DNA of 64,000 bases from a virus: IMG/VR virus record IMGVR_UViG_3300034060_000702, positions 18,461-82,460 of that record; one strand, given 5' to 3'. Below the pieces are notes generated by a model. That model was given only the letters and a program-made list of their open reading frames with translations, ran no database searches and had not been told where the DNA came from. Numbering within the stretch: the stretch's first letter is position 1; each line of letters opens with the position of its first letter. Below are positions 6,868-62,254 of this stretch, piece by piece. Both the position numbers and the translations under genes were made by a program.

Positions 6868-6886
6868 AATAATTTTTTTTAAAATA

Positions 6887-9800: not shown

Positions 9801-10396
9801 TAGTTTCCTATAAGTTGATCACTTGAGATTTCAAGTTTATTATCTTTAGCATACTTCATTGCTTTGTCCATCATGTTAGTATATGGGATATACTCTACAT
9901 TCTCAAAGCCCAAAGATTCATCATTAGAAGCATCCTTAAACTCTTTTAGTTTGTATTCCATATACTGATCACCTTGATCCCAAGCTTGACCACCACACTT
10001 ATCAGGATCCACACAATTTCTTAAAGCTTCTCCTCTAGACTTTTCATTTTGAAAATTCTTAGTCCACACCATATCTTTTACAATATGGTTGTTATTATAA
10101 ATAGCTTGAAAAACATTTGCTGCAGCATCAACATTTTCATCAAGTGAAAAATCCATACCAGCCATTTTTACAATATCGGTATTGATGTTTTTTACAAACT
10201 GATCTCTAGCCGCAATATTCTCATTCCTACTCATAGAAGAATTTAATATTGAACCATAAAGCTCACTTATCTTTTGATGATTTGCATCAAACTTAGTTTG
10301 TTTGGTTTGCAAAATTTGTGCATCAAATGCTAAATTCGGTTCAGTAGGTTGAATTTGTGATATGTAATCTGTAACTCCTGGTTGATATGTTGCCAT
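6887..10396 (-). CDS. Large virion cargo-like protein, 1169 aa
   Basis: Encodes a 1169-residue, highly charged, Lys/Asn/Asp-rich protein starting MATYQPGVTDYISQIQP. It looks predominantly alpha-helical with many coiled-coil-like segments, and has no signal peptide, obvious membrane span or recognisable enzyme motif. The N-terminal region (about residues 1-160) has two cysteines in CVDPDKCGG, a possible metal-binding or structural pair. It is third in the series of very large genes downstream of the muzzle gene, separated from its neighbours by 20-57 bases, so it is presumably cotranscribed with them. In crAss-like phages genes in this position encode proteins packaged in the virion and ejected with the DNA; that role is inferred from position, not from a motif. 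Confidence 0.85.
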   Translation of the reverse strand: MATYQPGVTDYISQIQPTEPNLAFDAQILQTKQTKFDANHQKISELYGSILNSSMSRNENIAARDQFVKNINTDIVKMAGMDFSLDENVDAAANVFQAIYNNNHIVKDMVWTKNFQNEKSRGEALRNCVDPDKCGGQAWDQGDQYMEYKLKEFKDASNDESLGFENVEYIPYTNMMDKAMKYAKDNKLEISSDQLIGNYMVTTKNGPQAYGPLAELFTNLYANDPKLLKQYEAQAYVTRKNNVGSIMSETGLDENAATSEYYRRQGTVQQEKINSILEQSNADEEYISGRISALEEKIKAGKVAKDSNLAKEYNALQQLLPGAQQASQYIKLAKMTAEKANDNTYIRNMASQLDSRDAAIFMHEDITGAAKSIADNTMTQKKEADEFAKLSVKHQYDVMMEGIKQSNRVALESHKASLKTDESNPFGTSTDGKEGKGNKLANTTVSAYLSENYKGPKLKGHWADEIKTLETVLTNNSSAVTGEKYKEAKTKLDKLRPLNEENIKRQQAQWLDKSGTKPVTGGSFSNLYNEDKKASGRTQEDYKNKKSSAVTGVSKTLGTINGILTGTGQQLYSEPEVNAEINKNNGKRSTKAADLNVNPVAKKQAVQIIQESYIPLPKATTEKINAGDSKTIAIHTNKVVNAEKKKLVATKPVTKEMIQFVADSHANPSVQKAYKELSKKPIEKLSATEKKNIAAKYEKLNKDQSFDMTGAQTVSSESVASAYNKQSSYLNNTLGAKTKVVNRAYIETLDKNSAEYKLIKRQALNFIKQRGVENNNINKLREESSTREQGKKPVKEYFVANTKYKENEISDWGLMNLIENNSSFSQTLYKYNVQKKTDSPGDNPKLLKMLESPKVQKAQDRIADIQEDMTNHFNLKKEGHDDIVTKMKDGLDDYQYPFQKDVVKDGFLISKREFIKKNIALGRRDIDDLNEEYQTYTEKYHEGLSIGLKQTKNKSGVGPATYNIYESNNVHMYADLSPARNDAMNYINETFKASATGDRALFVNGNKITDKTEIQKYIGELQRSKDFYNLSYQLSGLTGLQDGVKDDWEGLSFYNTKTSQKITLATNPNARMSKMYDDRDQSTKDKSLQQTGRTILFRGNDLTNKKAVYVEKTNSGELKFDGVIHVDGKLEDLNTFLYNSDKDYYESLESYEDALGFLNDVFETQKKIK

Positions 10397-10453
10397 AGTT
10401 TTTAATGTAAATATATTAATTATTTAATAACCAAAAATTAGTTATCCTTATGA

Positions 10454-13297
10454 TTAAGTTGTTGAATTTTGCTGAAGTCTAATCAACTCTTCAGGTGTTT
10501 GAACTTGATTTTCTGCATCGCTTGCATCACCAAGTTTGTAATCTCCTTTTGCAACACCCATAACCATAGCAGCAATTTTATCAGGACTAACTCCTGGCAT
10601 TTGTTTAACATACTCTGCATACATTCCAGGTATATCCATTTTGCTGTTTGTTTTCGGAGTAACAGGTTTTCCAGAACTATTGTAAATTACACCAGTAGCA
10701 ATATCTTTTTTGAAATTGTTTGTGGTTTGATTTAAGTTAAATATGTTCGAAGCATTAGTCCAAGCAGCATTTGATAACTCAACAATCTTATCTTTAGCAG
10801 CACTTATAGAATTGTCAAACTGTTGTTTTAAAGTTTGTCTTTTATCATGCATACTTGTTGCATTTGCAGCATCTTGAGCATTTGCAATATTTGCAAGTTG
10901 AGTATTTCTATCTTCAGCACTATTAAACAAACCTACATTCTTATCAGCATAATTGCTAATTTGATCTGCTACTTGTTCATATGCTTTACCTTGCATTTGA
11001 GAAACACCGGCAGCTAATTGACCGGGAGTTGCAAATGCTTGTAATCCAGCAATACCTTGACCAAGTTGAGAATTAACAGCAGCAATAGCTCTTTCCGGAG
11101 AATAGAACATTGTATCTGATTGTTGTGTTGCTCCAACTTTTGACCAAGGATCATATTTCTTAATATCATTTTTAGCATCAATTGCTCTATTTAAAGAAGC
11201 AATATCTTGTTTTCTAAAATCCCATTTACCAGGTACTGGAGGTTTAGCATTTAAAGGATTAGTTTTTACATCAACAGTTGAATCAATTTTTGCAGCTTCA
11301 GGTTCAATTTCATAATCAGGTTTCATTGAAAAACCAAAAGCATCAAAATGTTCAAAACCAGATTTTGCATCATCTTTATGAACAGGTCTATAGTCACCAG
11401 ATGTTTTTAATTTATCTTCAATACCTCTTGTTACACCAGCAAAATTCTTTTTGTAAAAATCTTCTGACATTAATTCAGCATCATCTTTAGCTTTTACACC
11501 TAAGAAGCTAGTAAACTCTTTTTTGTTTACTAATCTTTTTGCAGGATCAGCAAAAGTTTCTTCAATTAATTTAAAACCTTCTTCTTCAGAAAGACCTTGA
11601 CCTTTTGCTTTTTCAAGCAAGTATCTTTTTTCATAATCATCTGGTGAAAATCCACCAACAAATGAACCGGTCTTATCTAACTTACCTTGAGCATTAGCAA
11701 TTGAATAAGCACCAGTAGCTCCTTGATTAACAATTTTAAACTTATCAGTACCAAAGTCTTTTCCTGATTTATTTATAGCTTTACTAATTGCAATCTTAGT
11801 TCTAAAGTCTGGATTAAATGTTCCAAGAACTTTAATACCATTACCAACACATTTTCCATTCTTATCTTTTTTATTACATACAATAGTACCTGCTGCTAAA
11901 CCATCTTCTATAGCTTTATTTGCTATTTTTAATGTTTCAGCATTAGTTACATCTTTACTCCATTCAGCTAACTCATTTGCAGCAGAAGTTTTAGTATTAT
12001 TTGCTTTTACCTCACTACTCAAGTATCCTACTTTTCTGTAAGTACCATCTGGTTGTTCAACAAAGTCACCAACTTTAAATGAAGTATCTGTTGTTTTTTT
12101 AAATACAGCACCTTTAGGTACTTGATCTTTAGTATATGTTTTATATTTTTTAGTATCTGCTCCTCCATCTGCTTTAGGAAGACCAACAATAGTATACCTA
12201 CCAGCTTGACCACCTTCTGCAAAATTATATGTAAGACCTGCTTTAACTTCAGGATTCCATAAGTCTTGAGGAAGCATAGTATTTTTAATACCTATGTTTG
12301 CATTTAATCCAGTTGGATTATTAGTTTCATATGAAAGACTAGCTTGCCCGCTTGGATTAAGTAAAGCACCAGGAACTGAAGAATTTTCTAAAGTTACATC
12401 TCCTTGTAAATTACCAACTTTTTTAGTAAAACCAATTGATTGATTAGAAATTCTATTTTTAAAATCATCTATTAATGATTCAGTAGAGTAACCTGCATGT
12501 AATCCAGATTTATCAAAAACATTTACACCAGCACCAGCTATTTGATCTGTTCTAACAACATTACCTTGCTCATCCTGTTGATCTTGATTATAACCATAAA
12601 CAAAAGGATTTGCAGACAATCTATCTTTAAGTTTTGATAGTTTAGATTTACCACCTCCATCATCTTTCTTTTCTAAGAAACCTCCAAAGGCAGCTTGCAT
12701 CTGTTGTCCTACAGCTTCTTGCTGTGCCTCATCTACTTTAAAAATATCATCTGGAGTAGTTTTAGTCTTATCAAAGAATGGAGCAAACTGTTCGCTAAAT
12801 CCATCTTTCATTCCTTTTTTAGATTCTTGCCATAATGCTAATGCAGATAATGCAAACCTAGAGTTATCTAAATTCTTAACAGCAGAAGCTTTTTGAATTT
12901 TATCAGCATACATATCTTTGATGATTGCTTTAGATTTAGCAACAGCATCAATATGCTTTTTAGAAATTTCAGCAGGTGTCATTCCTTTTTTAGATTCCAC
13001 ACCAAAAAACTCCAACTCTTCTTTATCCTTTATCAATAATTTTTTGTTATCGGAATAAATAAAAGATGCACTTTTTCCATTATCATCACCAGTAGGCAAA
13101 TCTAATGGAGTTCCACCAGCACTGTGTTTTTTACCACCTATAGCTTTTAACTCAAAGATGTTATCATTTTCACTTAAATTAGTTAAAACTGTTTCACCTT
13201 TTTCAGCTTCTAAAACTGCTTTCTTTCTATCGACAGGTCCTACAGTTGTTTTTAACTTTTTCTTGGAACCATCAAATACATTTTTTTGAACAGCCAT
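10454..13297 (-). CDS. Virion cargo-like protein with GG motifs, 947 aa
   Basis: A 947-residue protein starting MAVQKNVFDGSKKKLKTT. The N-terminal 100 residues contain a compact segment with AIGGKKHSAGGTPLDLP followed by a region that reads like a small beta domain (SASFIYSDNKKLLIKDKEEL), a pattern I associate with crAss-like cargo proteins. Further on are AAFGGFLEKKDDGGG, FAEGGQAG and LPKADGGADTKKYKT; the last is nearly repeated in the next gene upstream (13301-15646). The middle (about residues 225-360) resembles a beta-rich domain of outer-membrane-like strands (GYSTESLIDDF, GLNANIGIKN). The start is 3 bases after the upstream stop, suggesting translational coupling. Function in virion cargo or ejection is inferred from position. 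Confidence 0.85.
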   Translation of the reverse strand: MAVQKNVFDGSKKKLKTTVGPVDRKKAVLEAEKGETVLTNLSENDNIFELKAIGGKKHSAGGTPLDLPTGDDNGKSASFIYSDNKKLLIKDKEELEFFGVESKKGMTPAEISKKHIDAVAKSKAIIKDMYADKIQKASAVKNLDNSRFALSALALWQESKKGMKDGFSEQFAPFFDKTKTTPDDIFKVDEAQQEAVGQQMQAAFGGFLEKKDDGGGKSKLSKLKDRLSANPFVYGYNQDQQDEQGNVVRTDQIAGAGVNVFDKSGLHAGYSTESLIDDFKNRISNQSIGFTKKVGNLQGDVTLENSSVPGALLNPSGQASLSYETNNPTGLNANIGIKNTMLPQDLWNPEVKAGLTYNFAEGGQAGRYTIVGLPKADGGADTKKYKTYTKDQVPKGAVFKKTTDTSFKVGDFVEQPDGTYRKVGYLSSEVKANNTKTSAANELAEWSKDVTNAETLKIANKAIEDGLAAGTIVCNKKDKNGKCVGNGIKVLGTFNPDFRTKIAISKAINKSGKDFGTDKFKIVNQGATGAYSIANAQGKLDKTGSFVGGFSPDDYEKRYLLEKAKGQGLSEEEGFKLIEETFADPAKRLVNKKEFTSFLGVKAKDDAELMSEDFYKKNFAGVTRGIEDKLKTSGDYRPVHKDDAKSGFEHFDAFGFSMKPDYEIEPEAAKIDSTVDVKTNPLNAKPPVPGKWDFRKQDIASLNRAIDAKNDIKKYDPWSKVGATQQSDTMFYSPERAIAAVNSQLGQGIAGLQAFATPGQLAAGVSQMQGKAYEQVADQISNYADKNVGLFNSAEDRNTQLANIANAQDAANATSMHDKRQTLKQQFDNSISAAKDKIVELSNAAWTNASNIFNLNQTTNNFKKDIATGVIYNSSGKPVTPKTNSKMDIPGMYAEYVKQMPGVSPDKIAAMVMGVAKGDYKLGDASDAENQVQTPEELIRLQQNSTT

Positions 13298-13300
13298 ATT

Positions 13301-15646
13301 TTAAGATTTTTGAATGTTAATACCATGAGCTTTAAATAAGGCAACATCATCATCACTTAAATCATATTGTCCACCTAATGCATATGTCTTACCACCAAGA
13401 GAATATACTTGCTGATTCATTGATTGACTAGTGTTAGTTAAGTTTTGAATTTCAGCACCTGTATCAGTACCACCCATAAAGTTACCAAATTGATCCCAAC
13501 CTTGATTCTCTAATTGATTTCTTGGTCCATTTACAGCAGATAACTTACCTTCATTTTCTTTATCAAGTCTTCTTTGTTCTGCTTCATTTGCAAATTTAGT
13601 AACCCAATCCATTCCTTGTTTACCAACATCAGCTGCAGCATTCCAATCAACTTTAAGTTTACCTTTTTTATTCATAACCTCAACTTCTGTTTCAGCATTA
13701 AAAGGATTATCTTCAGGTAAACTGTAACCTCTTTCCATGATTAATTCTTCTGAAGTTTTACCACCTGGACCAAATTTATTTAATCCTCCACCAAATGCCA
13801 TCATAATAGTTTGAGCAGCTTTATGTAAATCAGATGAAGTTACACCACCAAAAGATTTCATTCCATGTGATTCTTGCATATACTTTAGTTTCTCATCTAA
13901 ATCAGGTTCTACTACTTCTTCTTGACGTGGAGAATCAACTATAGATTTATTTTCAGGAAAATGTAACATTGAAAAAGTAAGATTACGTGGGTTATCTTTA
14001 GTTTCAACAACAGGTTCAACAACAGGTTTAGAAGCTACAGGTATAGTTTCACCTGGTTTAAGAGGTATAGTAGTAGTAGGCGCAGTAGTAGGATTATTAA
14101 ATGAAGACAAGCGATTAATAAAATTATGTGCTTCAGGACTTAAATCAGTAGCAGAATCATAAGTTTTTTGTTTAGGAAGTACTGGAAGTCGTCTGTAACC
14201 AAAAGTTTTATCATAAGCTTCTTGATTTCTTTTAAGTGATGCTTGATTTTCTGCAATTTCTTCTGGTGTAGGGGTATAATCTTCTTCTTCTGAAGTTACA
14301 GGTGTAGTTGTTTTTTTAGGCATAACTTTTGAATTAGCTTTCATACCTGGTATATTCTCATCAACATATACATCATCTGGTATTTCGCTTGTTAAAGTAG
14401 AAGTTGCCGCAGTTGTTGGTGCAACTACCGCAGGAACTACTGGTGGAACTACAGCAGTTACAGGAGGTATAGCACCAGGAGTTGTAGCAGTTGGTACAAC
14501 TCCAGTTGGAGTAGCACCTTGCGCTGGATCCCAATTAATCTTATATTTCTTACCTACTACTTTTCTATTAAAAAGACCACCTCTAATATCTTCAGCTTCT
14601 GTTGTCTTCCATGTTCTTCCATCAGCAGTACCAGTACCTTTTCCAGGATCAAATAAATCTGAATAGTTAAAACCAGCAGGAACATTTTTTCCATTGATTT
14701 GCATTTGTCCAGGTTCTCTTCCAGAGTTACCAAACAATCTTGCTAATGATGATGTTCCAAATGTATTAGTTGGAGGCGCATAATTATAAACTATGTTATA
14801 TCTTGGTTGACCATAAGGATTAATATTTGGATTACTAAATTGAGGATTTTGTCCTGTATTAATAGCTGTTGCTACTGGAGCTTTATATTTACCTACTTCA
14901 GTTTTATAATCAAGCTTGGTTGTATTCTTGTCATCTGCATTATAGTCATATAAAGCTTCAAGATATTCTCCTCTAGTTTTATACTTAGACATATCTAGAC
15001 CACCATCAGCTTTAGGAAGATCTCCACCAAACTTCATGGAATCTGGACTGTTTTGAAAAACTTGCTTACTAGCTTGATTCATTAATGCATTTTGTTTTAT
15101 AGCATTAATAAAATTTGCTTGTCTATCTTGTACATAAGAAGCAGAGTTAACATTAAGATCAGCTTTACCACCAAATGCTTTTTCAATTAAATTAAATGCA
15201 GGACCTCCAAAAGCCATTTGCAATTCTTCATCTGTTGGTTGAGAAGCACCTTGTTGCTCTTGCATCATAGCCATTTCTTCAGGAGATGGTTGACCACCTT
15301 CTTGAGGCATACCTTGCGGAGCACCTTCCATCATTTCCTCTTGTGGATTAGATGCTTGACCTTCTATCTGCTCTTCACCAGGACCTTGTTGTTGTTGACC
15401 ACCCTGCATAGCTTCTTGAATAGTAGCTTGTGCTTCTTCTGGAGCCATACCCATTTGAGTAAATACTTCCATGATCACTTCTGGTGGAACTTGACTACCT
15501 AATAATTGAGCAGCAACTTCTGCAGGTTGCGCACCTTGCTCCAACATTTGTTGAGCCATTTGCATTACTTGTTGCATTTGATCACCCCCTCCTTGTTGAG
15601 GAGCTTGTTGTGCTGGTGCACCTGGCATGTTTTGAGAATCTTCCAT
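13301..15646 (-). CDS. Gln/Pro/Gly-rich cargo-like protein with FGG repeats, 781 aa
   Basis: A 781-residue protein whose first about 160 residues are low-complexity and rich in Gln, Met, Pro, Gly and Glu (for example QQAPQQGGGDQMQQVMQMAQ). It carries repeated hydrophobic-FGG motifs: MAFGG, KAFGG, MKFGG, KSFGG, MAFGG and related SLGG/ALGG near the C-terminus. LPKADGGLDMSKYKT, about residues 208-222, is almost identical to a motif in the following gene. The central part has a Thr/Pro/Val-rich linker. It lies directly after the muzzle gene, the position of the first cargo protein in crAss-like phages. The low-complexity N-terminus and the spaced motifs suggest a flexible, possibly proteolytically processed or self-assembling virion component; this is inference. 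Confidence 0.85.
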   Translation of the reverse strand: MEDSQNMPGAPAQQAPQQGGGDQMQQVMQMAQQMLEQGAQPAEVAAQLLGSQVPPEVIMEVFTQMGMAPEEAQATIQEAMQGGQQQQGPGEEQIEGQASNPQEEMMEGAPQGMPQEGGQPSPEEMAMMQEQQGASQPTDEELQMAFGGPAFNLIEKAFGGKADLNVNSASYVQDRQANFINAIKQNALMNQASKQVFQNSPDSMKFGGDLPKADGGLDMSKYKTRGEYLEALYDYNADDKNTTKLDYKTEVGKYKAPVATAINTGQNPQFSNPNINPYGQPRYNIVYNYAPPTNTFGTSSLARLFGNSGREPGQMQINGKNVPAGFNYSDLFDPGKGTGTADGRTWKTTEAEDIRGGLFNRKVVGKKYKINWDPAQGATPTGVVPTATTPGAIPPVTAVVPPVVPAVVAPTTAATSTLTSEIPDDVYVDENIPGMKANSKVMPKKTTTPVTSEEEDYTPTPEEIAENQASLKRNQEAYDKTFGYRRLPVLPKQKTYDSATDLSPEAHNFINRLSSFNNPTTAPTTTIPLKPGETIPVASKPVVEPVVETKDNPRNLTFSMLHFPENKSIVDSPRQEEVVEPDLDEKLKYMQESHGMKSFGGVTSSDLHKAAQTIMMAFGGGLNKFGPGGKTSEELIMERGYSLPEDNPFNAETEVEVMNKKGKLKVDWNAAADVGKQGMDWVTKFANEAEQRRLDKENEGKLSAVNGPRNQLENQGWDQFGNFMGGTDTGAEIQNLTNTSQSMNQQVYSLGGKTYALGGQYDLSDDDVALFKAHGINIQKS

Positions 15647-15708
15647 AACTTAATACTTGTTAAAATTAATATAGTAAAAATAATTTAGAATGTATAACTA
15701 ATAAATGT

Positions 15709-18700
15709 TTATCTTAATGACTGTAGCATATCTGCATATGCAATATTGACAAGCATTTCCACATTATCATTTTCCATTCTTCTTAATATCACGCGATGCT
15801 TATTGTTTCTAAACTTCTTTCTTTCAAATTCTGATTTTTGATAATTAATTGAATCAGGGTTTATACTGCGAATGTAACCATTATCTTCTGTTTTCCATAT
15901 GGTTTCCTTTACATTACTATACTCACCTCTGTCTTTAACTATATCCCAAAATTGATTGAATCTATATTTTTGTTCTTCTTTAGAATACAATATATCGATT
16001 GAATTAAAGTTTACTTTTGGATAAGAAATCATATCACTTAAATCATTTTTAGGATTCAAGTTCAATTTTAACTTTCCAGAAATCTGTTCTGTATTATAAA
16101 TTACAGCCTCATCAAAGTTTCGATCTAATAATAAAAATTTATCATAGGTGTTCTTATCATAGATAGAAGCTTCAATGTAGTATTCGATGCTTCTTAAAGT
16201 AGTAACTTCTAAGTTTGTATCTAATTCAAATTCTACTTCAAAAGGATAAGAGTCACCATAATAATTACAATAGTTTGTAACACTTTTATTATGTCGCCAG
16301 AACCCATTTACTTTAGTTGTAATGAATGTATTCTTACCAGACATAGCTAAGTCTGGATGCCAGTCATGGAATGAAACAAAATGATTAATCATTGGATCAT
16401 AAGAAATAGTCCAAGAAGCATTGTTAAAATACATTGGATTCCCAACATGTGTTTCAAACATCCCACCAATTAAGAAAATACCATCTCCTTTATATTCGAC
16501 AGTCATCAAAGGATTAGGTCCTTTGAATTCATCTTTTAAAGAGTAATCTTTTTTACAGAAATAAACAATACCATACTCATTATCATAAATAGTTTGGCAG
16601 CCAATTCCAGCAACTGGATTGTCATCAATATCGAAGTTTGGAAAATCTTCTTTTAACTTATATGGTAAATAAAGATTCAACCAAAATTCATTATGATTTA
16701 AAGACAATTCTTTTATTCCACCTGCATATTGAAATAGTTTACCTTGATTCAAACACATCCAATATAAACCTGTAGGTGTATTTATTACAGATAATCTACT
16801 TTGACAAGAACCATACTCATAAGATCTTTCTGAATTAGAAAGTCTTTGTAAATCTCTTGCAAATAAACTACCATCTCCAATTTGAAGTTGAGTACCGCTA
16901 CCAGTTTGTAATGTATCTACACCAGGAAGTAAACCAGGAGCAGTATTCTTAAACAGTATTAATGCTGCAGTTTTATCAATTGGTTTTATAGCTGTAACTT
17001 CACTGTCAAAGTCTTTATAATTATAAGGTAAGAATACTGACCAATTATCTTTTTTTGTTTCAGTTTGTTGAGGTAATGAATACAACACTCTTCTAATTCT
17101 TTTTGTATAACAAGAAGCATATAACAAAGGATCATATTTTAATTCTTGTATAGTTGACCATGGAATTTTTGCAAATGGTAAAAAAGATACAGCAACACTT
17201 CGATCAAGTTTATAATAATTATCATTCTTAATAATATTATTATGGAACATTGCATCTAAGTTACTTGTTATAGGATAGTGTCTTTTTTCAATTACTTCTC
17301 CATAATCACGACAGTCAATATTTAATTCAGACTCAACAAAGAATTCTCGAACTCCAGAATTAAACAAATACATGTATGCTTTTTTCAATGTAAACAAACC
17401 TTCACCCTTTCCATTCTTATCAAATACATGTAATGAAGAAGGTACACCTAAAGCTTGAAAAAAAGCATCTGCGGCATTTGGATTATCTTTAAACATTCTA
17501 TCAGCTGCATTTTTAAAAGCATCTGATATAGATGATGTAAAGTCACTAAAATCATAATTTTCAGTATTCATCCAATAAGATGTATACTCAAACATTTGAT
17601 GCAATCTATAATTAAGTTCAGCTCCATCAGGTTCACCATGTAACCATTGTTGAAAATAGTATAATGTATTTTTTTCAGAATACTTTCCAATATATGTATC
17701 ACCACCAAAAACTATATCAGATTTAGATTGATTTACATTATAGATAAATGATTGTGTTGGAATAATTTTAATATTTGTTAATTGACCATATTGATTTCGC
17801 AATCTATTTTTTATTGCAACATAATGAGAAGAAGCTCTATAAAAATTATCCGCAAATTGTGCAGAATCCTCAAGAGCATTAATTTTTGGAGGTCTAGATA
17901 TATCTTGTATAGTTGGATCTGATACATTTGATGTTGTTGTAAGTACAACAGTTTCTTGTCTATGAGTATGATTAATTACATAGTTTTGTGAAGGTGTATA
18001 TAAATCATATAATCCAGGATTTAAGTATTTAGCATTATGTAACTTCTTTCTAATATTTGCAGGATTTGGAATACCAAAGTTTTCATATTGACAAACAGAA
18101 ACATGTTGATAAGCAAATTGAGAATATTTAGAAATAGATTTTATCAACTCTAAAAAAGAGTTTGCTCCTTCTCCTAAATAATTTGTAAACACAGGAATTG
18201 CTGTAATAGCTCTTAATAAACCAGGACTTCTATCTACATTATCATAACTTATTTCCGTATGCCCAGATACTAATTGAGAACCAGGAATTAAACTTGCAAC
18301 AAATCCAGCATCTTGAGCAAAAGCTTTGGCAACATAGTTTGTAGAAGCAACTCCATAGTTTTGACCAGTAAATACATCAGCTACAGTTGTAGTACCTTCT
18401 AATGCTATAGAACCTATATCCGATGCTAAACCTACAACACCTGCTGCAGATAAACCAGGAACAATACCTCCAAGACCATTTGCAAGACCTGCATAAGCTT
18501 CAAGCCATGGTAACGAACTACCATCTCCTTTAGAAGAAACATATTTTGTATTTCTTGTACCAGATACTTTACCAATAGCATATCCAATACCTATTACAAC
18601 ACTAACAGTAAATGCAAAGTTTGTTACAAATTTATGTCTTGGATGTTCATCAACAGGTTTGTAATGTCCTTTAGACATACCATACATTTCCCCATAAATT

Positions 18701-38903: not shown

Positions 38904-40520
38904 TTATAAAGAATAACCAGTGATTGGGTTTCTCATAACGATTTTCAACACTTTAGTTGGATCTTCTACTTTGATCGCAGGCATTGCTTGTGTCATGTAG
39001 ATTTGGTATCCATTGAAGTTACCTGAAGATTGGAACCCTTGAGTTCTTCCCATGTAATCCATAGAACCATTAACATATCTCCAAACAAGGTCTTTGTTCC
39101 AAGCACATTTCAACAATTTGATGTTATCATTACCATTTTCAGTAATATCAAATACGATGAATGAGTAAGAAGACAATCTATGACCATCAATGATTGGGTT
39201 CTCAATATCATTGTTTTGTAAGTTATCGAATGCTGGATTCAATACAAACTTGATATTAGCTAAGAAAGGAATCATGTACTCTGTGAAAGAGAATCCGAAT
39301 CCTAAATCCATTCCTTGACCTTTGATAGCATCAAGTTCTTTAGCGTTCATAACCAATCCAGAAGAGAAAGCTTCGCGCTTAATCGCTTCATTGATCATTC
39401 TCATACCACCCATACCTGTTTGAACAATCAATGATCTTTTAGAATCTGGTCCTTGGAAATCAACTTTACCATTGTAGAAGTTGAATAATTCAGAACGGAA
39501 GATGTCTAATTTGAAATCAGATTTGTTGTATACATGTTTGAAAGACAAATCTAATTGTTTCCAAAGTCCAACTGATAATCTTAAATCATCTGGCCCATCT
39601 TGTTTGATTCGACCACCTTTACCCCACATTAAGTAAGTTTCGATGTCATAAGCAATTTTGGACAAGTGAGCTGCTTCCAACTTAGTGATAAAAGTTCTAA
39701 CTAAGTTACCATTAGCTTGCGCTTTTTTGATATAGTCAGCACCTTTAGCTTTCACCATTCCTTCTAAAGAAGTAATTGATGGATCTAAACTTGTGTCAAA
39801 AGATTTCCATAACTCTGTTACAGGTACTTTTCCATCTGCATTCATACCACCTTTTTCCATCAACTTCACTTTAGAAGAGATTGAATAATGAACGTGTGCA
39901 TCTGCATTACCAACATAGTTGTAGAACTCTCTTGTTGTAGCAGTAGTTGTAAGATCAGAATATCTTTCACCATATTCACCTCTTGCAGAACCTACTCTGA
40001 AATAGAATGATTGTGATGTCAAGAATGCATTATCAAATACTGCATCTGAATCATTGTTTACTAACTGTACTGTATAGATAACTCCATCAGTTAAATCAAG
40101 AATTTCCTCATCAGTGATGAATAATTCTTTACCATTGAACTTATCATAAGTGATGATGTCACCATGACCAAAAGTTCTTTTGTTCAATTTGATTTTAAAT
40201 GGAGTTCCATCTAAACCTTTCATTGAGTTGTTAGAATCTAAATCCTCAACAATGAATGGAAGCTCTTCAGAAACTGGTGTGCTCCATTTGTATTCACCTC
40301 TTGGGTGTTGAACGTCAATAACATTCTTACCACCAAAAGAAGACATTTGATAAAGAGGCATCTCAACTTTTTTAACTTGAGCCCATAATTCTACTGGACC
40401 TAAATCATCTGGTTGTGCATCTTTCATCAAATTCATCATGTGATAAGAATCTACATGCGAACTTGCTGTGTAATGGTTATCCCGAAGGAACATTCCATTA
40501 TTTAAAACTGGTGTACTCAT
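38904..40520 (-). CDS. Major capsid protein, HK97-fold, crAss-like, 538 aa
   Basis: A 538-residue protein starting MSTPVLNNGMFLRDNHYTA. The N-terminal 'NNGMFLRDNHYT' and 'YHMMNLMKDAQPDDLGPVEL' patterns, the size, and its place right after the acidic scaffold-like protein and before connector genes identify it as the major capsid protein of the crAss-like HK97 fold. No extended Ig-like insertion is evident beyond the family's usual E-loop and insertion domain (about residues 90-210). A strong terminator follows, as expected for the most abundant virion gene. Function: shell of the icosahedral head. Confidence 0.85.
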   Translation of the reverse strand: MSTPVLNNGMFLRDNHYTASSHVDSYHMMNLMKDAQPDDLGPVELWAQVKKVEMPLYQMSSFGGKNVIDVQHPRGEYKWSTPVSEELPFIVEDLDSNNSMKGLDGTPFKIKLNKRTFGHGDIITYDKFNGKELFITDEEILDLTDGVIYTVQLVNNDSDAVFDNAFLTSQSFYFRVGSARGEYGERYSDLTTTATTREFYNYVGNADAHVHYSISSKVKLMEKGGMNADGKVPVTELWKSFDTSLDPSITSLEGMVKAKGADYIKKAQANGNLVRTFITKLEAAHLSKIAYDIETYLMWGKGGRIKQDGPDDLRLSVGLWKQLDLSFKHVYNKSDFKLDIFRSELFNFYNGKVDFQGPDSKRSLIVQTGMGGMRMINEAIKREAFSSGLVMNAKELDAIKGQGMDLGFGFSFTEYMIPFLANIKFVLNPAFDNLQNNDIENPIIDGHRLSSYSFIVFDITENGNDNIKLLKCAWNKDLVWRYVNGSMDYMGRTQGFQSSGNFNGYQIYMTQAMPAIKVEDPTKVLKIVMRNPITGYSL

Positions 40521-41941: not shown

Positions 41942-41973
41942 AAAACCTAACAAATTGTTATTTGCTAGGTTTT
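41942..41973 (-). terminator. Long hairpin at end of portal gene
   Basis: A 14-bp stem, AAAACCTAGCAAAT/ATTTGTTAGGTTTT (one G-T pair), with an AACA loop on the minus strand, spans the last codons and stop of the portal gene. It lacks a long T tract beyond TTTT, so termination may be partial. It divides the packaging transcript from the scaffold-capsid transcript. Confidence 0.65.
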
Positions 41974-44696
41974 TTATCATACTGATTTTTGTTTTCTCTT
42001 GCAACTTGTAGATCTATTTGTTTATCCATTGCAGCTTGGTTAAGTTTCTGTTTTTCAATCTCTAACTTTTGTTGTGCAAGATTTGTTCTAGTTGCTTCTT
42101 TTTCTTGATTGAATCCCATAGTTTCTTGATACTGATCATTTTTACGCATTGCATCTAATGTATCAGTAAAATCAGATTGTTGATTTTGATTGATGTCTTG
42201 TTGAGCACCATATCCTGCAGCTTTAATTTCTGCTTCAAGTAATCTGTTTCTTCTATCTTTTTCTTTCTCTCTAGACTCATGATCAAACACCATTTGTTTC
42301 TCTTTTTGTCTTGCTTGAATTTCTGCTTGTTGAGCTTCTTGTGCTTGTTGTTGTTGTGCTTGTTGTTGAGCTTGAGCTTTAGCCTCAATAGATTTAAGAG
42401 CATTGTTAAGAGAACCAATTGAATCTGCCTGCATAACACCTCCCAATTCATAAATAGATGCACCAGTAGTGTTGTTTTGTACAAACATTTGTTTTAACTG
42501 TTCAAGAATAGTTCTATGATTTACATTTGTAGTACCATAGCAATTCAAATCTGCTAATAACAAATCTGTACCATTGATTTCGAAATTAGTTCTTTCATCT
42601 GGAGAAATCATTCCTTGTAACTTCACTGAAGGTTTTGTAGAATGATAAAACTGTGCAAGATCAGTTCTCATCTGGTGAACTCTAGGCATTAAGTGATCTG
42701 AATGCTGAATGAAGTAAACTTCAGTCTGTGCAAAAGAACCAGTCATTGCTTGTTCTACTCCGGTAGCAGTATTTATTTGACCAAGTTGTTGGCCCATTCT
42801 TTGAGGATTTAATCCTACAACTTCCATTGCTTGTTGCTTAAAATAATTTGCAAGTTGAATTCTTGATTGCAACCTTGCAGTTTGTTCTAAGTTTAAAGTT
42901 TGGTAGTGTTGAAAATTAGATGTTGTTTCTGTATTTTGAATAGAAGGATCTAAGGGCAACATTGAAAAATCTTTCATCGCTACATAAGCTTTAGCAAGAT
43001 TCCCTTTACCCCAGTCTTCTCCCATTGAATGTCTTGGTAATGCATTTTGGTCTAACACCACAACAGTACCAATTTCATCTATAAGAATATCTGCTATCTG
43101 ATTGTTACATAAATTGTATCCAATCTGTGCAGGCTTCATCTGGTCAACCAATGATGTAGATTTAGTATTTCTATCCGAGAATACTCTTCCTTCAATTGGT
43201 AACTTACAACCATACATTGAAGAATCTCCTTTAAATTGAAATCTTAATGGTCCAGGTGTAGGTCTTCCAACTCCTATGTACATAGAATCAAAATCACCAT
43301 CATCATTTAAGTAATTAAATACAGATCTATTGTTTCCAATTTTTACACCAGCATTAGTTTGGTTAATCCAAATCCAATCAATATGATCTCCAAATACAAG
43401 ATTATCTGCACTTCTTACATCAGTAAATGACATGTTGTAAATTGGATTTGTTCTAACTACATAATTCTCATCAATGATTTCAGTCACAACTTGACCATCT
43501 TCATCAATTTTAGTTAAGTTACCAATTCTTCTTTGTGTTTTCCAATATACATGAGTAACTCTTAACATTTCAGAGTTATTGATATATCCTGTGTGCTCAC
43601 TTTCTCCAAGTACCCAAGATACAATATCGCTTGATTCAATGTTTGAATCGATATGAGCTAAGTGTCTTTTCATATCAACACCCATAACTCTATTCTCATC
43701 ATAGGTTTCATCGGAATTGTATAATGAACCATCATTTGGAATACCATCAACAAGATATTTTGCTGAACTGGAAGGATTCAATCTTTCTAGTTTTTCCAAT
43801 TGTTCATCAGTCATCAAGTAACCATGTATATCAATTACATCTGCAATAGACATCATATCAATAAAACCAGAATAGTTTCCTTGAGAAACATATTTAGTTG
43901 AAGGTGATTTATGGTAAAAAGTCAAAGCAGGATTCAATACTTCAACATCATAGTCATCTTCAAGCATCCTAAAGTGCCAGAATTCCGAATCTGTAATTAA
44001 GGAATCTCTAAAAGCAACTTCTTCCAGTTCATCCATGTGAAATCTATTAACATCAATAGCATGTTGCTTAACAGCCCATTGCTCACTTAATGTTTGATAT
44101 GATTTAGAATAGAACTTTTCAATTTGTGGTAATTTCTTTAATGCTTCTGGATCGATTTGCTGTTTAGCTTCTTCTGATTCAGGATCCATTCCCATCTCAA
44201 TCATTTTAGATATAAGTTTCTGGGAAGCATCTTGAATTAAAGCACTACCAATTTCATCAGCTTTCTTATTCATTATCTCATTGTATGAATACTCATCCAA
44301 TGCGCGATAATCTATTTTAGTATTTCTTTTAGCAAACTCACTAACAAGTGTATTTACAATGTTTGGAATTATTGGATAGAATTTTAATTCCATTGCAGAA
44401 TCTGTATCTTCTACAAGTACATCCAATATGTCAACCATATCATTGTCTACTTCTGGAATATAATCAGTCTTATCAATTACACCTTTTGCAAGTTTGTAAT
44501 TCTTCATCAATCTTCTTGACTTCTCTCTGATTTGTTTTATCCCTTGCCATTCAATCCAATCAATGTTATGTCTATACCATTCTTCATCCTTTTCCTCTAT
44601 AGGTAAGAACTGAATTGGTTGTGTGAATACATTATATCTATTTTTATTTTTAGATTTTTTTCCACCTTTAAGGTCCATTGCATTTAATACTTCCAT
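41958..44696 (-). CDS. Portal protein, crAss-like, 912 aa
   Basis: A 912-residue protein, larger than the usual 500-700 residues of portal proteins but normal for crAss-like phages. It starts MEVLNAMDLKGGKKSKN. The core reads as a portal: YRHNIDWIEWQGIKQIREKS, IIPNIVNTLVSEFAKRNTK (a typical portal clip/stem entry), and DVEVLNPALTFYHKSPSTKY. The last about 130 residues are a Gln/Glu/Lys-rich coiled coil (QAQQQAQQQQAQEAQQAE) as in portal barrels. It lies 1 base after the TerL stop, and its 3' end forms a hairpin with the scaffold leader downstream. It forms the dodecameric DNA entry/exit vertex. Confidence 0.85.
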   Translation of the reverse strand: MEVLNAMDLKGGKKSKNKNRYNVFTQPIQFLPIEEKDEEWYRHNIDWIEWQGIKQIREKSRRLMKNYKLAKGVIDKTDYIPEVDNDMVDILDVLVEDTDSAMELKFYPIIPNIVNTLVSEFAKRNTKIDYRALDEYSYNEIMNKKADEIGSALIQDASQKLISKMIEMGMDPESEEAKQQIDPEALKKLPQIEKFYSKSYQTLSEQWAVKQHAIDVNRFHMDELEEVAFRDSLITDSEFWHFRMLEDDYDVEVLNPALTFYHKSPSTKYVSQGNYSGFIDMMSIADVIDIHGYLMTDEQLEKLERLNPSSSAKYLVDGIPNDGSLYNSDETYDENRVMGVDMKRHLAHIDSNIESSDIVSWVLGESEHTGYINNSEMLRVTHVYWKTQRRIGNLTKIDEDGQVVTEIIDENYVVRTNPIYNMSFTDVRSADNLVFGDHIDWIWINQTNAGVKIGNNRSVFNYLNDDGDFDSMYIGVGRPTPGPLRFQFKGDSSMYGCKLPIEGRVFSDRNTKSTSLVDQMKPAQIGYNLCNNQIADILIDEIGTVVVLDQNALPRHSMGEDWGKGNLAKAYVAMKDFSMLPLDPSIQNTETTSNFQHYQTLNLEQTARLQSRIQLANYFKQQAMEVVGLNPQRMGQQLGQINTATGVEQAMTGSFAQTEVYFIQHSDHLMPRVHQMRTDLAQFYHSTKPSVKLQGMISPDERTNFEINGTDLLLADLNCYGTTNVNHRTILEQLKQMFVQNNTTGASIYELGGVMQADSIGSLNNALKSIEAKAQAQQQAQQQQAQEAQQAEIQARQKEKQMVFDHESREKEKDRRNRLLEAEIKAAGYGAQQDINQNQQSDFTDTLDAMRKNDQYQETMGFNQEKEATRTNLAQQKLEIEKQKLNQAAMDKQIDLQVARENKNQYDKKPSK

Positions 44697-44697
44697 A

Positions 44698-46920
44698 CTA
44701 TCTTAAATTTTTGAATGCACTTCTTTGTTTTTTAAAACCACTATTGGAATTATTCATACCAATATTTTTAAAAGGGCTTCTGTTTAATTTATACAAATTT
44801 TCTGAATTATCCAAATATTCTGTGTCTTCATGTTCAATTCTTACAGTTGTTCCTCTATTTGATTCCTGAATTTTAACAAATGTAATTAATGCGCCTAAAG
44901 AAATCAATCTATCGACATTTAATCCTGGTTGGTATGCTTCCATTTCAACCATTGCCATTATATCCGGAATTCTAGATACTCCAAATTGAATTATATTTAC
45001 ATTTCCATCTTCGCTATACTCAACATCTAATTCCTCTTTTAAGAATTCAATCAGATAACTCAACATAACTGTTTTAAATATGGTTGAAACATTTCGCCAT
45101 CCATATTGTTGAAATTGGGTTTTTGATGCTTGTATTTCTTTAGAAAAGACCATTTGAGATGAAGGCACTAAATACTTCTGTTTTCTTTTAAATTGCATGT
45201 GTTGAATAAACAAGGGTACATTGTTCTCAACAACTGTCCAAGCTTGATACCATTCAATCATTAATTCTAATCTCTCATGTGTTTTATTAATGTCATCAAA
45301 TCGACCACACCATGAAGCAACTATCTTATCACCTTCAATAAAGTTTTCTACTTCACCATTCTGTTGTATTCTTTGTACCTGTACAGGATTTTTGTAAATG
45401 TAAATTGAACATAGAGATTCGGAAGTTGTAGTTTTTCCTTCTCCAACTGGATCGACAGATGCAAAGTATGTTGTACAAAATTTAATTTCATCATCCGGTT
45501 CTTCCCATACTTGAATTACTCCAGTTTTATCTTCAGCATTTTTTGTAATAGGAAATTCTGTAATTGGAGGTTTAGTTGTAAGAGAAGCAACAATTTCACC
45601 ATTAATACCATAAGATAAATTATAACTCTTAAATGGATAGTCACCTTCTTCAATATTTCTTTTGTGACCTTTGATTACTTGAGTTGGAAATATACTTTCT
45701 CCTCTAAATGCAAAAGCCTCTTCTAAGTTAGTTGGATGCTGGGAAATTCGAATCTGATATTGTTCAGGATCCAAATCTTTTTTCCACTGAATTCTTTTTT
45801 CAATAATAGCCGCTAATGCTTCCTCAACTTTACTATTACCAAAGTCATCTATGAATGGAGGCATTGACCATTGTTCTGGAACAAACAATCCAGTAACTAA
45901 GACTGTACCTTTATCATTTACAAACTTATTCCTTACACCATAGAATCCATTTCCCTTTGGTTTGTACATGAATTTCTTCAATGGTTCACATTGTTTCAAG
46001 TCACCTACTGATCCTGCAGCAATAAAAAATCCTGTTGTAATATCTCCAGATTCCATGGCTGGGCGCATGAACTCATAAGTCTTATCCATCGATTTAGCAA
46101 TTCCAGCTTCCTCATAAAAAAACAAAGTACATAAACCCCCTACACCGGCTGTATCCGATTGCTCAAATGATAATGATTGAAGTACACCTTTTCTACCTTT
46201 TTCAGTCTTTCTTCCATTCTCTACATACTCAATCTTTTGCTGCCATTCACCAACACCACCTGGGTTCATTGGTCTATACCATGCAGTATGTTGATTTAAG
46301 AAAATTCGGTATGCTTGTAAGATTTTCCATGTACCAGTTACACCAGTGATGTAAGCTGATAATGAAGCTCCGATTTTTAAGATTGGCGATTGTTCAAACC
46401 ATAGTATGTTTAATAACTTAGCAGCATGATAAAGGGAAGAACCGAACTGTCTTTTCTTTAGGACACATCCATGCTCATAGTTGAGTTCTGCAATACATTC
46501 ATATAATGCCATGTGTAACTGCGCATCCCATATATCAGTAAAGTCATCAGTCTTTTTAACTTTGTCTGGAATCTGTAAGAAGTTAATCCAGAAATAATAA
46601 TCTCGCGGTAAATACCATTTCTTACCATTGTTGTGTATGAAACAACCTTTTCTACATTTGAGTTTTTGATCATCCCAGTAATTAATGAAATCTCTTGAAC
46701 CCTCTAATGTATCTGTATAATATCCATGCTTCCTAAAGGTTTCTCCAGGTTCTTGAAATATTTTTACTGATTCATCAAATTCATATTCACCAGGTTCCTT
46801 AAAGTAATTATTTTCTAAATCATCTTTAAAGTCTTCTCTGGCATCATAAGATACAAAACCCCATACCCCATTATTATAACAGGGTATGTCTTTGTATATC
46901 ATTCCTAATTTATCATTCAT
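44698..46920 (-). CDS. terL: Terminase large subunit, 740 aa
   Basis: A 740-residue terminase with both domains. ATPase: Walker A region KKRQFGSSLYHA (residues 155-166) in which the usual Lys after Gly is Ser (S161), with K155/K156 possibly taking its place; Walker B LCTLFFYEEAG (about 263-273) with E270/E271. Nuclease (RNase H-like): acidic triad candidates D490 in YFASVDPVGEGK, E565 in WTVVENNVPL, and D653 in SRIPDIMAMVEM. Together these identify the packaging motor and headful/end-cutting enzyme. It lies 2 bases after the stop of the 170-residue TerS candidate and 1 base before the portal gene. Confidence 0.9.
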   Translation of the reverse strand: MNDKLGMIYKDIPCYNNGVWGFVSYDAREDFKDDLENNYFKEPGEYEFDESVKIFQEPGETFRKHGYYTDTLEGSRDFINYWDDQKLKCRKGCFIHNNGKKWYLPRDYYFWINFLQIPDKVKKTDDFTDIWDAQLHMALYECIAELNYEHGCVLKKRQFGSSLYHAAKLLNILWFEQSPILKIGASLSAYITGVTGTWKILQAYRIFLNQHTAWYRPMNPGGVGEWQQKIEYVENGRKTEKGRKGVLQSLSFEQSDTAGVGGLCTLFFYEEAGIAKSMDKTYEFMRPAMESGDITTGFFIAAGSVGDLKQCEPLKKFMYKPKGNGFYGVRNKFVNDKGTVLVTGLFVPEQWSMPPFIDDFGNSKVEEALAAIIEKRIQWKKDLDPEQYQIRISQHPTNLEEAFAFRGESIFPTQVIKGHKRNIEEGDYPFKSYNLSYGINGEIVASLTTKPPITEFPITKNAEDKTGVIQVWEEPDDEIKFCTTYFASVDPVGEGKTTTSESLCSIYIYKNPVQVQRIQQNGEVENFIEGDKIVASWCGRFDDINKTHERLELMIEWYQAWTVVENNVPLFIQHMQFKRKQKYLVPSSQMVFSKEIQASKTQFQQYGWRNVSTIFKTVMLSYLIEFLKEELDVEYSEDGNVNIIQFGVSRIPDIMAMVEMEAYQPGLNVDRLISLGALITFVKIQESNRGTTVRIEHEDTEYLDNSENLYKLNRSPFKNIGMNNSNSGFKKQRSAFKNLR

Positions 46921-58313: not shown

Positions 58314-58372
58314 CCAGGAGGGCAGGGGAGGGAGGGGGGAGGGGGTGGCAGAGCAGGGCAGGGAGGACCAGA
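58314..58372 (+). repeat. G-rich purine tract with quadruplex potential
   Basis: A stretch of G-runs separated by 1-3 A/T or C residues (GGGCAGGGGAGGGAGG...) in a genome of about 30% GC. Four or more runs of at least three G within 30 bases satisfy the usual G-quadruplex pattern. It is upstream of the rightward operon and is probably functional or a boundary from another source. Confidence 0.7.
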
Positions 58373-60429: not shown

Positions 60430-60466
60430 CATTTAAAAATCAGTATGATACACTGGTTATAATAAA

Positions 60467-60496
60467 GAATAGGACTTCGGTCCTATTCTTATTTTC
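60467..60496 (+). terminator. UUCG terminator after 82-aa gene
   Basis: GAATAGGAC-TTCG-GTCCTATTC, a perfect 9-bp stem, followed by TTATTTTC. Confidence 0.85.
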
Positions 60497-60571
60497 TTCA
60501 CTGTGTAGGTTAGAGTAGGTTGTGTGTGTTGGTTTACTATCACCACACTCACCCACTCCCATCCCACATCA

Positions 60572-60584
60572 ATGCCTTCGGCAT
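60572..60584 (+). other. TTC mini-hairpin M3
   Basis: ATGCC-TTC-GGCAT; followed by ATCTATTCAATTACTTCC, a flank partly shared with copies at 60682 and 61526. Confidence 0.6.
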
Positions 60585-60623
60585 CTATTCAATTACTTCC
60601 TCTTTTAGATAAAATATATATCA

Positions 60624-60704
60624 ATGTTAAAACAAGATGTGAAGAGCATGTTAACATTGATTATATGGAAGTTAATTGAGTATGTCTTCGACATCTTTGG
60701 TTAA
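60624..60704 (+). CDS. Possible 26-aa amphipathic protein
   Basis: An ATG at 60624 after an AT-rich leader opens MLKQDVKSMLTLIIWKLIE then YVFDIFG, 26 residues ending TAA at 60704. It overlaps mini-hairpin M4, so it may be coincidental. If real, it is a membrane-associated amphipathic peptide. Confidence 0.35.
   Translation: MLKQDVKSMLTLIIWKLIEYVFDIFG
60682..60694 (+). other. TTC mini-hairpin M4
   Basis: ATGTC-TTC-GACAT followed by CTTTGGTTAACTTCC and then CTTTTTTAAATAAAATTAATTATAG. Confidence 0.55.
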
Positions 60705-60809
60705 CTTCCTTTTTTAAATAAAATTAATTATAGCCGATTGCACAGGCTTGGTATGTGTAAATAAATTTAAAAGACTTCGAGTGTGGAATAGTAACACTCA
60801 CAATTAATC

Positions 60810-61166
60810 ATGGGTAGAGTAGCAAAAACAACAGTTAATGTAACAGTTAACACAGGAAAATTAAATCCTTTTACAAATGGTGTTATTAAAGGATTTGTAA
60901 CATTAGAAGAGGTTACAAAAGGTGTTAATACAAACGGAAAAGAGTTTGTGATCATACCAGGTTTTGGTGTGACTTACATGCGCATTTCCGAAATCAAAGC
61001 AGGCATCAAATATGGTGTTGTGCAATTTGATTCAAACACCGAAGGAAATGAAGGTGCACTGGCACTTAATAAGATTTCAGGTATGGAAGAGTTAAAATAT
61101 TACATGAACCAATTTCCAGGTTCTAGTATGATTGACATAAAAGAATTGTTTGGGATTAAATTATAA
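60810..61166 (+). CDS. Hypothetical protein, 118 aa
   Basis: A 118-residue protein, MGRVAKTTVNVTVNTGKLN, rich in Gly/Thr/Val with beta-strand patterns (GFVTLEEVTKGVN, FVIIPGFGVTYMRIS) then a helical end (GMEELKYYMNQFPGSSM). No known family. It is closed by two successive hairpins (61149-61173 and 61182-61216). Confidence 0.6.
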   Translation: MGRVAKTTVNVTVNTGKLNPFTNGVIKGFVTLEEVTKGVNTNGKEFVIIPGFGVTYMRISEIKAGIKYGVVQFDSNTEGNEGALALNKISGMEELKYYMNQFPGSSMIDIKELFGIKL

Positions 61167-61181: not shown

Positions 61182-61216
61182 ATGGTGTGCCCTTCGGGGT
61201 GCACCATTTTCTTTTT
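61182..61216 (+). terminator. UUCG terminator after 118-aa gene
   Basis: ATGGTGTGCCC-TTCG-GGGTGCACCAT (one G-T pair) followed by TTTCTTTTT. A very strong intrinsic terminator. Confidence 0.9.
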
Positions 61217-61411
61217 ATGCAAACAAACAGAGATCCTGAATTAACAGGTTTCCTCGGAAAGAGGAAGAGAGGTTGGTGAAGTACAAGCCATAAAACAGAG
61301 GAACCTCGCTGTTGACATACCACAAGTTACTTAATCCGAAAGGAAGATAATTGGGGTATGCATTGCATATAAAAAAGCACTACTCTTCGGAGTAGTGCTT
61401 TGTTTTTTTTT
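61217..61411 (+). ncRNA. Candidate structured non-coding RNA with its own terminator
   Basis: No open frame of note. The 195-base segment between two strong terminators can form: H1 CCTG/CAGG (61235-61248), H2 TTCCTC/GAGGAA (61250-61266), H3 GAGGTT/AACCTC (61269-61307), H4 CATACC/GGTATG (61316-61360, with inner TCC-GAAA-GGA), and the terminal hairpin AAGCACTACTC/GAGTAGTGCTT. The stacked helices, a GNRA-like loop, purine-rich joints and a U-tract at 61402-61411 are typical of an independent RNA. No known class (6S, tmRNA, RNase P, group I intron) fits. Promoter not identified. Confidence 0.6.
61375..61411 (+). terminator. UUCG terminator of the candidate ncRNA
   Basis: AAGCACTACTC-TTCG-GAGTAGTGCTT, an 11-bp perfect stem followed by G and a run of nine T. 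The strongest terminator in the window. Confidence 0.9.
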
Positions 61412-61413
61412 AA

Positions 61414-61630
61414 TACTATCCCATGGCAAGGATGTCGGTTAGTTGTTGTTTAAATTACTATCCCATATCCGACCACATCCTGAAGTTCTCATGTATTGAA
61501 TACAATCCCATGGTAGGCATAATGTATTGCTCCGCAATCTATTCAAATACTACTGTAGGAAGAACCAGAATGTTTTGATTACTATCCCACAGCAACCATA
61601 TCCGAGAGGCCAGGTATGCTTACTATCATC
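61414..61630 (+). repeat. Spaced TACTATCCCA repeats
   Basis: TACTATCCCA occurs exactly at 61414-61423, 61456-61465 and 61580-61589 and with one change (TACAATCCCA) at 61501-61510; degenerate forms are at 61549 and 61621. Spacing is 42, 45 and 79 bases. The text between copies is unrelated. GGATGTCGG after copy 1 can pair with CCGACCACATCC after copy 2. Mini-hairpin M6 lies at 61526-61538. No gene. It may be an iteron-type origin or part of an RNA. Confidence 0.55.
61526..61538 (+). other. TTC-type mini-hairpin M6 (variant TCC loop)
   Basis: ATTGC-TCC-GCAAT, followed by CTATTCAAATACT, the same flank as M3. Confidence 0.5.
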
Positions 61631-61711
61631 TGTAAACCTTCCACATAAAAAAACCAAATGTTGCTTTTGTGATGCAACTAAATATTAAACCTCCTATAAA
61701 ACTTATTAATC

Positions 61712-61906
61712 ATGTCAGAACAAGAATTAAAAAATAATAAGATTGCAGAAGTAAGACTTACTGCTAAAGAATTTAATAACATGCAAGCATTGGCTGTGCA
61801 AGAAAGTGAACCTTTACTACATACCTATAACAATGGTGGTGTAACAGTAAAAGTAGCAATAGGCTTCCTAATTACATTTGGCTATTTGGATTTAATCGCC
61901 TTTTAG
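61712..61906 (+). CDS. Hypothetical protein, 64 aa
   Basis: A 64-residue protein, MSEQELKNNKIAEVRLTAK, ending FLITFGYLDLIAF, with a mostly alpha/beta pattern. No family. It follows the TACTATCCCA repeat zone and a leader with TATTAATC before ATG. Confidence 0.5.
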   Translation: MSEQELKNNKIAEVRLTAKEFNNMQALAVQESEPLLHTYNNGGVTVKVAIGFLITFGYLDLIAF

Positions 61907-62028: not shown

Positions 62029-62254
62029 CTTTTTTTCTTACTCCCTTTTTTAAATAGTGTTTGTCGATACATTAAGCCACTTTTATACCCAAAAACAGGG
62101 GTTTTTACTAAATTCATCGACAAAAAACAGCCATTCATCGAAATTGAGGTGAGAAAATAATATAATAAGGACTTTTGTGGGTATATGATAGACTCTCCAA
62201 CACCTTATTCTTCAATCCTTCATTTCGCTTATAAACCCAAAAAACTTTAATACT

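Follow-up and report, generated by a model that had tools for sequence, protein, structure and literature searches.

A directional repeat array and its wider motif family as candidate transcription-control sites in a crAss-like phage clade

The crAss-like phages, a highly abundant group, inject an RNA polymerase of their own, and a phage with such a virion enzyme requires promoters that it can read. Iteron origins, of the lambda ori and P1 oriR type, consist of direct repeats on one strand, spaced more or less regularly. The virion polymerase promoters of phage P23-45 are short conserved motifs (PMC10770324). In phi14:2, the early operon is reportedly transcribed by the virion polymerase, according to work cited in PMC8375218. 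No published promoter motif for a crAss-like virion RNA polymerase was found in the literature searched, whose coverage of phi14:2 work is incomplete, and a search of phage papers for the motif word described below returned nothing relevant. The locus considered here lies in a 64,000-nt stretch of viral DNA (the window; positions 18461-82460 of an 82,460-base contig), to which coordinates refer unless stated otherwise. It carries an array of direct repeats belonging to a conserved, one-directional signal common to related phages, most likely a promoter or operator and less probably a replication origin.

The phage and its array of repeats

The window encodes a Crassvirus major capsid protein at 38904-40520 (Crass_capsid, PF23898, 9.6e-26), a portal at 41958-44696 and a terminase at 44698-46920, the last two matching crAss-type families beside the capsid (phrog_6547, 1.2e-76, and phrog_6681, 1e-53, portal and terminase families). 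To the left of the window (contig 4194-18218, L084), the contig encodes a protein of 4,674 aa with homology to the catalytic RNA polymerase of phi14:2, a virion RNA polymerase (E = 1e-19); in the alignment its DYDVD lies over the DFDID motif of that enzyme. The same protein additionally contains AlkB-like, DprA-like and Dda-like helicase regions. Judged from the Crass capsid, portal and terminase families together with the giant polymerase homolog, the contig is a crAss-like phage. Terminase identity to the best catalogued phage records is only ~23-26%, leaving it without close cultured relatives, and a DNA-level search returned no similar phage record. Late genes run leftward; the short genes that begin at ~58 kb run rightward and are interspersed with several terminator-like hairpins. 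From the layout of phi14:2 and crAss001, we infer by analogy that the start of the rightward genes is the early zone. A G-rich run, ggagggcaggggagggaggggggaggggg, occupies 58316-58366 near the divergent gene junction, in a phage of ~33% GC.

The array falls in a noncoding stretch among the rightward genes (Table 1). A preliminary description of this DNA had reported three exact copies and one near copy of a 10-base word at 42-, 45- and 79-base steps, and a word search of the 64-kb window recovers them at exactly these spacings, all on one strand. The degenerate copies it had named are likewise present: TTACTATCA occurs at 60534 and 61620, with TACTATCA inside it at 60535 and 61621, the former in the loop of a hairpin at 60513-60558. 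All three exact copies of TACTATCCCA in the 82,460-base contig lie in the array, and a 10-mer present three times arose in none of 5,000 dinucleotide shuffles of the 307-nt stretch 61405-61711. At up to one mismatch, TACTATCCCA is not rare over 64 kb (6 seen, 4.1 expected), so that its beyond-chance feature is local clustering rather than window-wide frequency.

Table 1. Coordinates of the repeat array, canonical motifs and adjoining features in the window
Feature	Position	Strand	Remarks
Terminator-like hairpin	60465..60490	+	5' of the 60534 motif
Canonical motif TTACTATCACC	60534..60544	+	3' of terminator 60465-60490; in hairpin loop; 275 nt before ORF 60810
118-aa ORF, without family match	60810..61166	+	5' of the array
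Terminator-like hairpin	61182..61207	+	3' of ORF 60810-61166
Terminator-like hairpin	61374..61401	+	Immediately 5' of the array
Array copy 1, TACTATCCCA	61414..61423	+	Directly 3' of terminator 61374-61401
Array copy 2, TTACTATCCCA	61455..61465	+	Exact TACTATCCCA at 61456-61465
Array copy 3, TACAATCCCA	61501..61510	+	One mismatch to TACTATCCCA; followed by GGTAGGCA, compare the RGTATGCA extension of relatives
Array copy 4, TTACTATCCCA	61579..61589	+	Exact TACTATCCCA at 61580-61589
Canonical motif TTACTATCATC	61620..61630	+	In the arrays of relatives too, the canonical copy is the one closest to the small gene
Conserved small gene, 64 aa	61712..61906	+	3' of the array; homologs in array-bearing relatives; no Pfam or PHROG family

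Two noncoding neighbors fold much more stably than their shuffles. The segment 61208-61401 is a candidate noncoding RNA between two terminators (z = -4.4 against shuffles for 61205-61410; no Rfam match), and 60430-60800 holds several strong hairpins (z = -5.4). On the other side of the small gene, an inverted repeat, TTTGTCGATACATTAAG / CTAAATTCATCGACAAA, is located at 62060-62124, and TCGTCGA-type words similar to it occur in a relative (L108, ~11950-12045). The product of the small gene is predicted to adopt an alpha/beta fold (mean pLDDT 80), whose fold matches are weak and none of them useful.

Counterparts in relatives and the wider motif family

Relatives were gathered via the terminase and via the small gene 3' of the array, a profile search with the small protein yielding 12 loci. 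A counterpart array precedes a homologous 60-66 aa gene in G007, G009, G011, G015, G017, G018, G019, G023 and L297; the repeats are thus not absent from relatives, an outcome named in the preliminary description as refuting, but stand at the same place in diverged genomes. Among these arrays, exact TACTATCCCA is found in G007 only; exact matches in G014 and G017 were discarded as lying inside genes. Copies in the other relatives read TTACTGTCCCA, TTACCGTTCCCA, TTAGTAGCCCA, TTACAGTCCCA or TTACTAGCCCA, and share a core of TTA, about four variable positions and CCCAT (TTA-NNNN-CCCAT), often followed by RGTATGCA. Copies are more alike within one genome than between genomes, and these CCCA-type words were seen nowhere but in the arrays, scattered chance matches aside. 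Scanning viral contigs with a loose gapped pattern produced chance matches for the most part and was set aside. The gene-proximal copy is canonical TTACTATCATC in every array compared, and in some phages another canonical copy lies 12 nt 5' of the start codon. Steps of 41-45 nt make up 10 of the 17 spacings below 100 nt in the arrays compared, a proportion with a probability of ~7e-8 under a uniform null, to be read with the provisos that the phages are related and that the interval was picked after the data were seen. In L296 (2550-2910) and L297 (2640-2940), hairpin modules (GAAACCTCCGGTTTC, GGCTGAACCCAGGTTCAGACTCC) are interspersed among the array copies, and several of these modules resemble tRNA T arms. 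In a further relative, L101, a long intergenic stretch at 7860-8210 is noncoding and probably structured, with no Rfam match.

The canonical word belongs to a wider family, TTACTATCAYC, with 56 matches in 51 records (some of them inside genes) against none for the reversed control; because some relatives are near-duplicates, these counts are not independent. The word is on the strand opposite to the terminase gene in 55 of the 56 matches. Intergenic sites, of which each genome has several besides the array, are situated either directly 3' of a terminator or 12-99 nt 5' of an ORF, and the order of terminator followed by motif recurs in L115 and L135 (~60% terminase identity). The motif is missing from some post-terminator units in the window (59101, 59768) and from the first rightward genes. 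In 41 intergenic sites compiled by the core word, the core is invariant by construction and the flanks are the informative part: G content falls from 25.6% just 5' of the word to 11.3% just 3' of it, and no second conserved box was seen in the 20 bases upstream.

Possible roles of the array

The array and the TTACTATCAYC sites may best be read together as directional transcription-control sites, the likeliest form being a phage promoter or operator; we put the probability of this reading at roughly 0.45. The word is strand-specific, follows terminators, precedes genes and coincides with an abrupt change in composition, and for these reasons it most resembles a transcription start signal. It lies on the strand of the genes that it would serve, between terminator and gene, and is conserved beyond chance in a phage that encodes a homolog of a cognate polymerase. 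The repeats would then be a directional cis-acting control array of the TTACTATCAYC family in this clade. The canonical word may be a compact promoter, with transcription starting at the motif, for a phage-encoded RNA polymerase, the virion enzyme being the leading candidate reader, or else be recognized by a transcription factor of the phage. Expression of the small gene at 61712 would be driven from the canonical site at 61620, and the TACTATCCCA copies might act as related tandem sites at ~42-nt steps, boosting or regulating this expression. Since most relatives have array words that depart from the canonical core (as in TTACAGTCCCA and TTAGTAGCCCA), a reader shared by both kinds of site is not assured.

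A strictly one-directional motif could also act in RNA, as a word in leader transcripts, single-stranded or presented in a loop, for a phage RNA-binding protein or an antisense RNA in antitermination or translational control. The strong folding of the neighboring segments 61205-61410 and 60430-60800 and the location of some copies 12 nt 5' of a start codon are consistent with such a role, as are the post-terminator sites (e.g., 60534), which are closed by stems more often than expected from permuting their flanks (as high a value in 10 of 1000 permutations). Pre-gene sites, however, have no significant stem excess (100 of 1000), and folding of the array itself is no more stable than that of shuffles (z = -0.49), with flank pairing equaled by 329 of 500 permutations. 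The preliminary description had offered, as an alternative, that the repeats are loops of further RNA hairpins, with pairing between copies 1 and 2; the complementarity of GGATGTCGG with CCGA..CATCC does exist, but array hairpins were rejected on these values, the stem excess being restricted to the separate post-terminator copies. At gathering thresholds, Rfam had no match in the window and, in relatives, matched tRNAs alone, low-threshold matches all scoring far below gathering scores. The phages contain no conserved complementary word, and the motif is almost absent in reverse-complement form. Taken together, a role at the RNA level appears rather unlikely.

The same directionality, combined with a preferred 41-45 nt step kept in diverged relatives, would suit an iteron-type origin at which the direct repeats bind a phage initiator and nearby AT-rich DNA is opened, an arrangement to which the position of the array between a GC-richer early zone and a purine-loaded right arm, and the second noncoding stretch with its inverted repeat that follows at 62060-62124, would lend themselves. 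The iteron-like character proposed in the preliminary description holds for the geometry, that is, same-strand direct repeats ~42 nt apart, and finds no positive support as regards replication: the GC-skew switch at the array does not recur in relatives, which led to rejection of an origin on this basis, and for the adjacent gene on the 3' side no match to a known initiator or a DNA-binding family was obtained. The spacing of about four helical turns noted there is not significantly phased at 10.5 nt (p = 0.08). Because several other intergenic sites in each genome carry the related motif, transcription control fits better than an origin, which we regard as distinctly improbable. Self-regulation on a more local scale, in which the protein from the adjacent small gene binds the array and the canonical sites elsewhere form a separate promoter element, would explain why array and gene occur together in all relatives compared, why CCCA-type copies keep to the array and why they resemble one another most within a genome; yet the alpha/beta fold predicted for the 64-aa protein has no useful match to a DNA-binding family, and the odds of this arrangement seem slim.

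Comparison with described systems

Like an iteron origin, the array consists of direct repeats that share one strand and follow one another at fairly regular distances. It differs in having about twice the usual spacing, in lacking a recognizable initiator and a shared skew switch, and in the occurrence of single copies of a related motif elsewhere in the genome. The likeness to P23-45 lies in short conserved motifs 5' of early units, in both cases in a phage that has a two-barrel RNA polymerase of its own. The motifs of P23-45 were linked to transcription starts by mapping and to ChIP signals, whereas the candidate sites described here come from sequence comparison, have another sequence, occur in another phage group and are accompanied by a tandem array.

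Phi14:2 and crAss001 (PMC8375218) share with this phage the division into late genes in one direction and early genes in the other, a virion RNA polymerase homolog and short words enriched in early gaps. The words themselves differ, and terminase identity to catalogued phages is low (~23-26%). The 5-mer and 6-mer most enriched in the early gaps of phi14:2 are CCTTA and ACCTTA, at positions similar to those of TTACTATCAYC sites, and enrichment of TTACTATC in these gaps was not found; the early gaps of crAss001 are enriched in TAGTGT. Such parallels were drawn after the fact and could arise in other ways, for example from tRNA-like genes in the crAss001 gap. Four TTACTTCA copies are present in a 905-nt gap of crAss001 (95965-96869, L310) below a TROVE gene, and a 144-nt tRNA-like gene lies in the same gap. 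An idea taken from crAss001, that of a TROVE/Y-RNA system, was dropped on finding no TROVE protein in 16 related records.

A bolder form of the promoter reading, which we hold tentatively and consider possible but doubtful, is that TTACTATCAYC is the promoter of the giant injected virion RNA polymerase, that the early arm ends in tandem promoter variants, and that other crAss-like lineages use words of their own (ACCTTA in phi14:2, TAGTGT in crAss001), making up a lineage-specific promoter code. A short, conserved and strand-specific candidate with clear placement renders the question testable in vitro and supplies predictions for these two cultured phages.
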